Both the position numbers and the translations under genes were made by a program. This document shows, one piece after another, positions 15,268-19,279 of a DNA stretch of 51,530 bases. The stretch comes from a virus. The notes under the pieces are model-generated. The model did not search any database and was not told the origin of the DNA. It saw nothing but the letters and a program-made list of their open reading frames with translations. How positions within the stretch are numbered: position 1 is the stretch's first letter; the number at the start of each line of letters is the position of its first letter. The stretch covers positions 1 through 51,530 of IMG/VR virus record IMGVR_UViG_3300015360_000058. One strand, written 5' to 3'.

Positions 15268-15304
15268 ATATTAATTATTGATTTTTTAAAAAATGGTGAA
15301 ATTT

Positions 15305-15736
15305 ATGATTACCTGTTCAAGGCGCATACAATTCTGCTCTGGTCATAGAGTTCTTAACCATGAATCAAAGTGTGCAAATCCTCATGGTCATAACTACGTT
15401 ATGTGGATTCACGCTAGAGCACCCTCATTAGACGGTATAGGAAGAGTTATCGACTTCTCGGTTCTTAAAGCAACCGTTGGAGAATGGGTTATTGATAACT
15501 GGGATCATACGTTTATCGCTAACGATCAAGATATAGATCTGATCAATGCAATTAAACCGTTCCATAAGAATAAAAAAATATGGGAAGCGCCATTTAACCC
15601 AACCGCTGAAAATATGGCTGAATATATTCTAAAAACTGTTTGTCCAATTGTTTTAAAAAACTCTGGAGTAGAAGTTTTTCACATCGAACTCTTTGAAACG
15701 GAGAACTGCAAAGCAGATGCAATATTACATCAATGA
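15305..15736 (+). CDS. queD: 6-carboxy-5,6,7,8-tetrahydropterin synthase
   Basis: The ATG at 15305 has a GGTGA site; the in-frame ATG at 15293 lacks one. The 143-residue protein keeps the QueD signature: Zn ligands in SGHR (His14) and PHGHNY (His27, His29), the catalytic Cys23 four residues before HGH, the WDH segment and the substrate motif PTAENMAEYI. The enzyme turns 7,8-dihydroneopterin triphosphate into 6-carboxytetrahydropterin, the second step from GTP to 7-deazaguanines. It is the first gene of a cassette with queE, folE, a queD paralog and a dpdA-like gene, and overlaps queE by 20 bp. All catalytic residues appear intact. GC content is below that of the late genes. Confidence 0.92.
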   Translation: MITCSRRIQFCSGHRVLNHESKCANPHGHNYVMWIHARAPSLDGIGRVIDFSVLKATVGEWVIDNWDHTFIANDQDIDLINAIKPFHKNKKIWEAPFNPTAENMAEYILKTVCPIVLKNSGVEVFHIELFETENCKADAILHQ

Positions 15737-16304
15737 TTTATTCTGGACGGTTCAAGGAGAGGGCTTTCACGCTGGCCGACGTGCATTATTTGTTAGAATG
15801 CCTTACTGCAATCTCGCTTGTTCGTGGTGTGATACTTCGTTTAACTCATATCAAAAAATTGAAGTTGATGAATTTCAAAAAATAGCAACCAGCGAAAGCG
15901 CAAAGTTTGCAGTCATCACGGGCGGTGAACCTATGATGAACAGGCACACTCCTATCATTGTTGCTCATCTTAAGAATCTAGGCTTTGAAATAGCTTGCGA
16001 GACAAATGGAACCTTTCCAATCGTTCCAGGAATTGATTACCCTACGTGCTCACCGAAGAGGGATGCAGACTACTTTATCCATCCAGACGCCTTGCCGGTG
16101 GTAAAAGAATTTAAATACGTTGTAGACGAAGGGTTTGATTTCTCGATCCTTGAAAAACACGCTGTTGATGACGGCCGAAGATATAGCCTGTCTCCTGAGT
16201 TTGGCAATATGCAAGCCTCTGTAGAGAAGATTATTGAATATATTAAAGGCAATCCACAGTGGCGGCTGAACTTGCAGACTCATAAATGGATCGGGGCAAA
16301 ATAA
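15717..16304 (+). CDS. queE: 7-carboxy-7-deazaguanine synthase (radical SAM)
   Basis: The ATG at 15717 gives 195 residues beginning MQYYINDLFWTVQGEG, a typical QueE start; the in-frame ATG at 15693 would add eight atypical residues. The radical SAM cluster motif CNLACSWC (Cys31, Cys35, Cys38) has the CX3CX2C spacing, followed by the SAM-binding GGEP (69-72) and an SPK motif. The C-terminus LNLQTHKWIG is characteristic of QueE. The enzyme contracts 6-carboxytetrahydropterin to 7-carboxy-7-deazaguanine (CDG), using SAM and Mg2+. It overlaps queD upstream and shares TAATG with folE, showing translational coupling. All key residues are present. Confidence 0.93.
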   Translation: MQYYINDLFWTVQGEGFHAGRRALFVRMPYCNLACSWCDTSFNSYQKIEVDEFQKIATSESAKFAVITGGEPMMNRHTPIIVAHLKNLGFEIACETNGTFPIVPGIDYPTCSPKRDADYFIHPDALPVVKEFKYVVDEGFDFSILEKHAVDDGRRYSLSPEFGNMQASVEKIIEYIKGNPQWRLNLQTHKWIGAK

Positions 16305-16849
16305 TGTCAGAAGAATTAATAGCTCAAATTATAAATCTTGTTGGTGATGATAGTAGTAGAGAAGGTGTTCTTGACACTCCGAAGAGGGTGATAAAATCTT
16401 GGAAAGAGTTATATTCAGGATATAAACAAGACCCTAATATCATTCTTGAAAGAGTTTTTACAGACGAGTCCTACGATCAAATGATCGTGTTAAAAGATAT
16501 CGACTTCTACTCAACATGTGAACACCATATGCAACCCTTTTTTGGCAAGGTACATATTGCCTACATCCCGAATAATAATAAGGTTGTGGGTCTATCTAAG
16601 CTCGCGCGGTTAGTGGAATGCTTTAGTCGCCGCCTTCAAATACAGGAAAGAATGACGCAGCAAATAGCGCAAACTTTTTTTGATATTGTTAAACCAAAAG
16701 GCGTTGGCGTTGTTGTTGAAGGAAAGCATTTTTGTATGGTTGCAAGAGGCGTCCAAAAACAAAATGGCGTAATGAAGACTAGCGCGTTAAAAGGGTTGTT
16801 TAAAGAGGACCCCGATTGTAGGAATGAATTTTTAAAGGCAATCAGTTAA
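16304..16849 (+). CDS. folE: GTP cyclohydrolase I
   Basis: The ATG at 16304 overlaps the queE stop (TAATG) and gives 181 residues; an ATG at 16286 would add six residues inside queE. Zn-binding residues of the CEHH motif (Cys72, His75) and of HFCMVARGV (Cys144) are present, as are the GLSKLARLVE, RLQIQERMTQQIA and GVMKTSA segments of FolE. The enzyme converts GTP to 7,8-dihydroneopterin triphosphate, the entry step of the deazaguanine pathway. Encoding it lets the phage raise flux independently of host folate synthesis. Its TAA shares bases with the ATG of the next gene. Confidence 0.95.
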   Translation: MSEELIAQIINLVGDDSSREGVLDTPKRVIKSWKELYSGYKQDPNIILERVFTDESYDQMIVLKDIDFYSTCEHHMQPFFGKVHIAYIPNNNKVVGLSKLARLVECFSRRLQIQERMTQQIAQTFFDIVKPKGVGVVVEGKHFCMVARGVQKQNGVMKTSALKGLFKEDPDCRNEFLKAIS

Positions 16850-17190
16850 TGAATAAAAAATTCATAGTAGTTCGATGGCAGTTTGCAGGATTTCATGCTT
16901 ATGAAAATGCTCCTGAGCAGGTAAGTTTTCTTAAGACAACGCACAGGCATTTGTTTAAATGCTCTGCCAAGATTGAAGTTAAACACGATAACCGTGAGCT
17001 TGAATTTTTTATGGTTCAAACAGATTTAACCAACGTGTTTAAAGCCGGCAATCACGATAACAAATCATGCGAAATGATAGCTGAAAACATACTGTCGTAT
17101 ATTGAAAATCGGTACGGGTATGATCGTAAAATAGAAATAGAAGTATCGGAAGATGGCGAAAATTCTGCCGTCGTTGAAAATGCATTATGA
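16849..17190 (+). CDS. QueD-fold paralog lacking the catalytic Cys; candidate deazaguanine-modifying enzyme
   Basis: The 113-residue protein resembles a short QueD. The presumed Zn ligands remain: FAGFHAY (His16) and THRHLF (His32, His34). The position that holds the catalytic Cys in the true QueD, four residues before HxH, is Leu28. The substrate motif PTAEN is replaced by KSCEM. It should therefore bind metal in the tunnel fold but cannot perform the QueD reaction. With queC absent, it may act on CDG, for example decarboxylating it to 7-deazaguanine as proposed for the phage enzyme DpdL; I recall that proposal but cannot compare sequences here. It overlaps dpdA by ATGA. Confidence 0.7.
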   Translation: MNKKFIVVRWQFAGFHAYENAPEQVSFLKTTHRHLFKCSAKIEVKHDNRELEFFMVQTDLTNVFKAGNHDNKSCEMIAENILSYIENRYGYDRKIEIEVSEDGENSAVVENAL

Positions 17191-18068
17191 AGATTTTTTT
17201 GGCTGGATGCGAAGTGTTACATCAATTTGATGCGTGTACTAGTGTTAATATAAAAAATGTACTTATTTCTTATTACCATGTAAAAAAAACAGAAGACTTT
17301 TCTAAAAAAATCATTAATAGGCTAGAACAAATAGACAATCTTATTTGTGACTCTGGCTTGTTTACATTAATGTTTGGCGCTGGCAAGGGTGCAACACACA
17401 CACTATCAAGCATGAAAAAATATACTGTCGACTATATAAAGTATGCGAAAACAATTGATCATAAAAAAGTTACATTTGTTGAATCAGATGTTCATAAATT
17501 ACTCGGTATGGGCGCGGTGTTTGAACTGAGAAAAATGTTTGAAGATTCAGGCCTTAAAGTAATTTATACTTGGCATATTGAAGAAGGAATCGAAGGCCTT
17601 TACCGTCTGGCAGAAAAATATGAATATATAGCTATCTCGGTTCCTGAACTAAGAGTCTTGTTTACAGGCAAGAAAATGAGATATCAGGACGGCGTGAAAG
17701 ACCTTTTAAAGAAAATAAGAACCAACGTAAAAAGCTACCCAAAGATTCACTTGCTCGGCAATACCATCCAAGAAACAATGGAAACAAACTTAGCCTATTC
17801 TTGTGACTCAACCTCTTATCTCTCAGGAGTCAAATACGGAAATTGCGTTGTTTATAAAGACGGCAAACTTTCTCAAGCGCACATTCGTTCAACTGAAATA
17901 ACTGAGCGAATTTTAAAACTTGAAAACATGCTGCCCGGTATAAGTAAGATTATACAGGATCATTCCATGAAAAATAAAATGTGGTTTAAACAAGTCGCTA
18001 TCTCTGCACATGCTTATTCTCAATACCAAAACTATCTCGATAGAAATTATAAATTTATAGGCGGTTGA
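17187..18068 (+). CDS. dpdA: DNA guanine transglycosylase (DpdA-like, TGT fold)
   Basis: The 293-residue protein looks like a phage member of the tRNA-guanine transglycosylase superfamily. It has a DSGLF motif (Asp55, matching the DSGG/F general acid/base site), ESDVH (Asp101), HLLGNT (188-193, matching the G-x-G base-binding strand region) and DSTSYLSG (Asp207, the presumed nucleophile). The canonical Cys-rich zinc site of tRNA enzymes is not seen. Placement after queD, queE and folE indicates a DNA substrate: exchange of guanine in phage DNA for a 7-deazaguanine. The likely role is protection from host restriction. Subfamily assignment needs alignment. Confidence 0.85.
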   Translation: MKIFLAGCEVLHQFDACTSVNIKNVLISYYHVKKTEDFSKKIINRLEQIDNLICDSGLFTLMFGAGKGATHTLSSMKKYTVDYIKYAKTIDHKKVTFVESDVHKLLGMGAVFELRKMFEDSGLKVIYTWHIEEGIEGLYRLAEKYEYIAISVPELRVLFTGKKMRYQDGVKDLLKKIRTNVKSYPKIHLLGNTIQETMETNLAYSCDSTSYLSGVKYGNCVVYKDGKLSQAHIRSTEITERILKLENMLPGISKIIQDHSMKNKMWFKQVAISAHAYSQYQNYLDRNYKFIGG

Positions 18069-18069
18069 T

Positions 18070-18753
18070 ATGGATATTAGAATTAATTATGAAATAGTTT
18101 CTATAGATCGTGTAAAGCCAAACGCTTGGAATCCAAATATACAAACCGATTTCATATTCGAACATGAAATAAAGTCTATTAAAAAACACGGATTCATTGC
18201 GCCCATTATCGTTAGGGAGTTAGACAACGGCACGCTTGAAATTGTTGACGGAGAGCATCGTTACAAGGCGGCACTTAAATTAGGCTCTGACAAAATAGCG
18301 GTTAATAATTTAGGCAAGATTGATATTAAAGACTCAAAAGCGCTAACCGTTATTATGAACGAAGTTAGAGGCAAGGCAGATACTTTTAAAATGGGCGAGT
18401 TGATTAAAGACCTAAACAATTCTTTTGGCATGGACTTTATTTTAGATTCGATGCCAATGACTGAGATAGAAATAAACAACATGTTGGGCAATGCCTCAAT
18501 CGACTGGGACGCGGTTACACCTGATTCAACTAATTCAAGTGATTCAACTAACAACCCAGCACCACCAAAAGACGCTGAACATTCAACATTGTCTTTTCAC
18601 GTGCCAGCGTATATTGCCGAACAATTTAACGAGCAGCTGCAAAGGTTTAAAACGCTTCTGTTTCCTGATGACATCAACGTGCAGGACACAATGCCATTGC
18701 AAGCAATGATTGAAATATTACGCATAACGCCAGACGAGGATATAATTGATTAA
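18070..18753 (+). CDS. ParB/Srx-fold protein, possible partner of the transglycosylase
   Basis: The 227-residue protein has an N-terminal ParB-like domain (residues about 8-100) with the motif HGFIAPIIVRE and the phosphate-binding DGEHRYKAA (60-68). A Ser/Thr/Asn linker (about residues 155-170) follows, then an acidic helical tail. It begins one base after the dpdA stop and overlaps the transporter gene, so it belongs to the modification operon. In bacterial dpd clusters a ParB-domain protein, DpdB, works with DpdA; I infer a similar partner or targeting role. A ParB-type CTPase or nuclease acting elsewhere is possible. No parA gene or parS cluster was found, which argues against plasmid-style partition. 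Confidence 0.7.
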   Translation: MDIRINYEIVSIDRVKPNAWNPNIQTDFIFEHEIKSIKKHGFIAPIIVRELDNGTLEIVDGEHRYKAALKLGSDKIAVNNLGKIDIKDSKALTVIMNEVRGKADTFKMGELIKDLNNSFGMDFILDSMPMTEIEINNMLGNASIDWDAVTPDSTNSSDSTNNPAPPKDAEHSTLSFHVPAYIAEQFNEQLQRFKTLLFPDDINVQDTMPLQAMIEILRITPDEDIID

Positions 18754-19279
18754 GAGTTATATTTTAATCGCCTTATATCTTGCAGCAATTGTTGCTGCGA
18801 ATAATATTGTTACTTATATGGGTCCGTCTGGACTTTTTATAACAGCAACATTTCTAATACCATTTGATTTAATCGCACGAGATCAACTGCAAGAAAATTG
18901 GCGCGGCAGTTACATGCTTCCTAAGATGGCGGCAGTAATATGTTTAGGCTCAATACTGGCCTATTTGTTTAATAGCGATACCAAACTAGTGTCTGCAGCG
19001 AGTGCAGTTAGTTTTTTAATTGCTGGTTCGATAGACTGTTTTTTGTATACGATACTTGACGGCAAGAAAAAATTCATAAAAATGAACTTGTCTAACCTTG
19101 GCGCGTCCATAGCCGACAGTTTTATTTTTCAATGGATAGCTTTCGGCGCAGTCTCTTACACGATTGCATGGCAACAAATAACTCTTAAGTTACTTGGTGG
19201 CCTTTTTTGGTCGGTAATTTTTGTTAAGGTTTACAACCGCGCACTAGCATCACGCGATACTTTACGCCATCGCAAGTAA
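18746..19279 (+). CDS. YhhQ/VUT-family queuosine-precursor transporter
   Basis: The gene starts with TTG at 18746, spaced correctly behind GAGGA, and overlaps the ParB gene by 8 bp. The 177-residue protein has five or six hydrophobic segments. The family pattern is clear: IVAANNIVTYMGPSGLFI at the N-terminus, PFDLIARDQLQENWRG, then SAVSFLIAGSIDCFLY and SNLGASIADSFIFQ. YhhQ imports the queuosine precursor preQ0 in E. coli. In a phage cassette it could import preQ0, preQ1 or related bases into the infected cell, or export surplus. It is shorter than the bacterial protein (about 220 residues). Confidence 0.8.
   Translation: MIKSYILIALYLAAIVAANNIVTYMGPSGLFITATFLIPFDLIARDQLQENWRGSYMLPKMAAVICLGSILAYLFNSDTKLVSAASAVSFLIAGSIDCFLYTILDGKKKFIKMNLSNLGASIADSFIFQWIAFGAVSYTIAWQQITLKLLGGLFWSVIFVKVYNRALASRDTLRHRK

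Follow-up and report, generated by a model that had tools for sequence, protein, structure and literature searches.

A small open reading frame in the genome of a siphovirus-like phage encodes a protein of 113 amino acids which, as judged from its structural model, has a T-fold closest to that of QueD, and which replaces QueC throughout its family. It probably acts on 7-carboxy-7-deazaguanine (CDG) in the stead of QueC and would decarboxylate it to 7-deazaguanine. The whole stretch of DNA analysed, here called the window, is a viral contig 51,530 bases long, and its terminase, portal, head and tape-measure genes indicate a siphovirus-like phage. The reading frame runs from ATG to TGA at positions 16849-17190 on the + strand, in a cassette with the following order:

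15293..15736, + strand, QueD (6-carboxytetrahydropterin synthase), PF01242 with E 6.4e-28
15693..16304, + strand, QueE (CDG synthase, radical SAM), phrog_2076 with E 1.7e-30
16286..16849, + strand, FolE (GTP cyclohydrolase I), PF01227 with E 9e-73
16849..17190, + strand, DpdL-like paralog of QueD with a T-fold, proposed to decarboxylate CDG, phrog_17812 with E 1.1e-21
17187..18068, + strand, DpdA-type DNA-guanine transglycosylase, phrog_887 with E 8.8e-25
18070..18753, + strand, ParB-like protein, PF02195 with E 5.6e-11
18746..19279, + strand, VUT/YhhQ-like queuosine-precursor transporter, PF02592 with E 1.1e-6

The 113-amino-acid reading frame is embedded in an operon, since its ATG overlaps the stop codon of folE and its own stop codon overlaps the start of dpdA (ATGA, 17187-17190). 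The QueD of the window is canonical and on a residue check contains the three zinc histidines, the cysteine, the aspartate-histidine pair, and PTAEN together with the further glutamate. QueE begins at a TTG inside the end of queD and matches TIGR04508 with an E-value of 6.9e-32, which is under the curated cut-off of that model. DpdA matches the DpdA of phage 9g with an E-value of 1.4e-7 (phmmer). A ParB-like gene adjoins dpdA in the window as well as in Cellulophaga phage phiSM, and in locus L195 of Amycolatopsis it lies close to dpdA. The transporter, which matches TIGR00697 with E 0.009 (under the cut-off), possibly belongs to the cassette. The region from 15293 to 18068 has a G+C content of 37.6% vs 47.6% for the window, which suggests that the cassette may be a recent arrival acquired as a block.

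Profile searches of the 113-amino-acid protein yielded no family match in Pfam and NCBIfam, and neither PF01242 nor the Pfam QueF profile matched it at E<1. A type of chemistry resembling that of QueF was ruled out on this absent QueF match. PF01242 did match seven of 80 relatives, the best with an E-value of 0.005, and the protein itself matches PHROG 17812, the function of which is annotated as unknown. An AlphaFold2 model calculated from an alignment of 80 sequences had a mean pLDDT of 94.6. Among solved structures it comes closest to E. coli QueD (Foldseek E 3.4e-5, TM 0.77), VIA gave a Z of 12.6 with an rmsd of 2.2 over 107 residues for the same pair, and profile-profile alignment of the family with QueD by hhalign gave a p of 7.6e-6. 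The likeness to QueD is thus far above chance, and the initial annotation, made from the letters of the sequence, had rightly recognised a QueD paralog. The QueF-like archaeosine synthase (5jyx), also a T-fold protein and one which acts on a 7-deazaguanine with a cysteine, was matched with a Foldseek E-value of 1.2e-3; it ranks below QueD structurally, and the window protein has no match to the QueF family.

Conservation was examined in an alignment of 115 relatives, which came from phages, viral contigs, and genome assemblies. Ten residues are unvarying in all of them: H16, L28, H32, H34, R49, E52, S73, C74, E75, and E101. The presumed zinc ligands His16, His32, and His34, which had been described as kept, are indeed present in 115 of 115. 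The protein shares with QueD/PTPS (PF01242; E. coli QueD, 4ntk) the T-fold, the equivalents of His16, His31, and His33, and those of Glu86 and Glu110. In the profile alignment His31 and His33 of QueD map to His32 and His34, Ser85-Glu86 to Cys74-Glu75, and Glu110 to Glu101. Unlike QueD it has leucine 28 at the position of Cys27, four residues ahead of HxH; this leucine, placed by counting back from HxH, occurs in all 115 relatives, as had been proposed for the one sequence. The motif which reads PTAEN in the QueD of the window and PTSEV in the E. coli enzyme was correctly noted as altered and here reads KSCEM, Ser73-Cys74-Glu75 standing where QueD has the core of PTAEN.

The initial annotation had noted the loss of the catalytic cysteine; the loss is wider, as the Asp70-His71 loop of E. 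coli QueD is deleted as well. Since none of Cys27, Asp70, and His71 is present and the cassette also encodes an intact QueD, the protein is unlikely to catalyse the QueD reaction. That the cysteine had been lost is true of the QueD position; an unvarying Cys74 lies beside Glu75 in the former PTAEN. A cysteine elsewhere in the active site had been regarded as evidence against the earlier reading, and Cys74 (115 of 115) goes part of the way towards this, its location at the active site being inferred by homology. It belongs to a second unvarying set, overlooked at first, which comprises Arg49, Glu52, Ser73-Cys74-Glu75, and Glu101. This set with Cys74, the loss of the aspartate-histidine pair, and the quantified exclusion of QueC are what the present analysis contributes beyond the initial annotation.

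QueC is the ATP-dependent enzyme which converts CDG to preQ0. A search of the whole 51.5-kb window with PF06508 gave no match, so that the cassette is without QueC as had been stated. The same profile was used to search whole records of carriers of the 113-amino-acid family and of a control set. As a scan of viral contigs for QueE, queried with the window protein and alignment A3, gave no matches, the control was drawn from the phages collection and via the QueE of phage 9g, and consisted of 20 records picked on QueE alone. QueC was found in 17 of these 20, 16 of the 17 scoring at least 148 bits, and the only control record which carries the 113-amino-acid family lacks QueC. Among the carriers two weak matches came from 15 records and none from 50 records or from the window. 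A strong QueC match was present in 0 of 67 carriers vs 17 of 19 QueE-bearing records without the family. When only records of at least 40 kb were counted the figures were 0 of 38 carriers vs 15 of 16 QueE-bearing phages without the family, with a Fisher p of 1.8e-12 (2.4e-10 counting both weak matches), calculated on records which are not phylogenetically independent and against a control skewed to Queuovirinae-like phages. One of the weak matches is a distantly QueC-like PP-loop protein of Vibrio phage D479 (L119:408-1214, 32.8 bits) with a QueC-like C-terminal cysteine motif; the other, in Xanthomonas phage X1, scores 16.2 bits and resembles NAD synthetase by eye. The swap is also seen between phages of one host genus: among Cellulophaga phages phiSM has QueC and phiST the DpdL-like protein, and among Rhizobium phages RHph_Y17 has QueC and RHph_I1_18 the DpdL-like protein. 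The family and QueC exclude each other, and the replacement of QueC is family-wide. This gives strong support to a role after CDG, as had been supposed for the protein of the window; in principle a host could make up for a QueC missing from the phage.

Relatives are numerous, a motif scan finding at least 595 in viral contigs, with further ones in 27 phage records and at 23 loci of genome assemblies, most of them MAGs. In 94 of 96 loci a gene for FolE, QueE, QueD, or a DpdA-associated protein lies nearby, with FolE near the gene in 64 and QueE in 58 of the 96. A DpdA-associated gene was found nearby in 75 of 96, which is an upper bound for DpdA since the set had taken in the ACP17 glycosyltransferase as a seed and the count hence exceeds or equals the true one. 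The compact cassette recurs in prophage-like loci of Amycolatopsis in the order ParB, DpdA, DpdL-like protein, QueD, QueE, FolE, and one of these loci (L195) contains terminase-like and portal-like reading frames.

Cui et al. 2023 (NAR) are said to have predicted a protein named DpdL as a 7-carboxy-7-deazaguanine decarboxylase in phage pathways. The window protein resembles DpdL in that its phage cassette also encodes FolE, QueD, QueE, and DpdA and lacks QueC. A relative about 29% identical to it is encoded by Cellulophaga phage phiST, in a cassette of FolE, QueD, and QueE which likewise lacks QueC; this is no more than suggestive. The protein is probably the enzyme proposed as DpdL. The initial annotation had called the two similar in idea; this likeness holds and was probably put too cautiously, as the two look like the same family.

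An enzyme acting on CDG is the simplest reading because the protein replaces QueC, lies beside DpdA, has a guanine/pterin pocket of the QueD type, and has lost the QueD triad. CDG is the substrate which we infer; decarboxylation, one among several fates of CDG compatible with the context, is the reaction already proposed in the literature for DpdL, and is put forward, like the roles of single residues, as a proposal from sequence. According to this proposal FolE, QueD, and QueE of the same operon would convert GTP to CDG, which would be bound by the guanine/pterin-recognising Glu75 and Glu101 next to the metal held by His16, His32, and His34. The carboxylate would be held, perhaps by Arg49, and C7 would be protonated, perhaps from Cys74 or Glu52, with release of CO2 and formation of 7-deazaguanine, which DpdA downstream would then exchange for guanine in the phage DNA. 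The catalytic parts of Arg49, Glu52, and Cys74 are putative, those of Cys74 and Arg49 being guesses.

CDG might also be processed otherwise, for instance to a conjugated or substituted 7-deazaguanine which neighbouring genes then elaborate. The replacement of QueC would look the same in this case, and a glycosyltransferase-like family recurs adjoining the DpdL-like gene or one gene off it in four phages whose hosts differ, ACP17, X1, PA5oct, and Phosso, suggesting a further decoration of the base or the DNA. These genes, beside the DpdL-like gene, are located as follows:

L003:8969-9994, glycosyltransferase-like gene
L007:5452-6609, glycosyltransferase-like gene
L006:8846-9904, glycosyltransferase-like gene
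L010:8276-9364, glycosyltransferase-like gene

In the cassettes of the window and of Amycolatopsis the stretch from QueD to ParB includes no additional gene of this kind, so that the minimal gene set must suffice there, and other processing of CDG is unlikely, though the best placed of the alternatives. A little less probable still is that an unusual active site of metal and Ser-Cys-Glu on the QueD tunnel fold gives rise to a deazaguanine which is neither plain 7-deazaguanine nor a product of QueC, and which the glycosyltransferase-like neighbour decorates further in some phages.

It is similarly doubtful that the protein is a non-catalytic, accessory partner of DpdA which delivers CDG, so that CDG itself would be inserted into DNA. 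The genes of the window do overlap, a DpdA-associated gene (in the set which includes the glycosyltransferase) lies at most 300 bp away in 46 of 96 loci, and Hutinet et al. considered that a phage missing QueC alone might have CDG in its DNA (PMC6884629). Unvarying metal ligands, arginine, glutamate, and cysteine in 115 diverse sequences are, however, the pattern of an active site and not of a scaffold. Very improbable is a variant PTPS/QueD-type enzyme working upstream on dihydroneopterin triphosphate with another residue in place of the cysteine, for although fold and pterin-binding glutamates are shared and Plasmodium PTPS structures use a catalytic glutamate (titles of 3m0n and 3lze), the aspartate-histidine dyad is also gone, a separate intact QueD is found in the window and at the loci of several relatives, and an upstream role leaves the exclusion of QueC unexplained.

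If decarboxylation of CDG is indeed the reaction, a cofactor-free, metal-dependent decarboxylase has arisen on the QueD fold, and the place of QueC at the CDG branch point has been taken over in a large and diverse set of phages. QueC (PF06508) would then share the substrate and the branch point with the window protein, to which its fold is unrelated. Five genes, coding for FolE, QueD, QueE, the DpdL-like protein, and DpdA, would form a compact route to 7-deazaguanine in DNA, a sequence rule would tell which phages carry which deazaguanine, and the published prediction would become a residue-level hypothesis open to test. In tubercidin biosynthesis removal of the carboxyl group from a CDG-derived intermediate has been assigned to TubF of the UbiD family, after TubE has first joined CDG to PRPP (PMC6112128). 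As TubF is a prFMN UbiD enzyme unrelated to the window protein, a CDG decarboxylase with a T-fold would solve the problem a second time, with an unrelated protein.

Some loci show additional features. One DpdL-like protein (L090:7995-8945) has a C-terminal extension of 200 amino acids. In another locus the DpdL-like domain is fused to a MazG pyrophosphohydrolase (L186:5998-6891), and in phiST a MazG gene is located directly upstream of the DpdL-like gene (L004:9415-9999); a functional link to nucleotide pools is possible.

Phage QueD proteins vary as well. A large class is without one zinc ligand, with HGY for HGH in all of its members (L124, L127, L137, and others; L169-L173, L176, and L177) and His16 replaced by phenylalanine or tyrosine in most (HRQ to FRQ or YRQ). 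Cys27, Asp70, His71, Glu86, and Glu110 are kept, and the class is found with and without QueC. The idea that this zinc-less type is limited to phages with the DpdL-like protein, forming a composite site with it, was ruled out as HGY also occurs in QueC-bearing phages, and on residue bookkeeping such a composite falls short of a full site. In the QueD of a QueC-bearing gut phage contig (L159, MT835580) the zinc motif HGH is kept and the alignment places a serine at the position of the catalytic cysteine.
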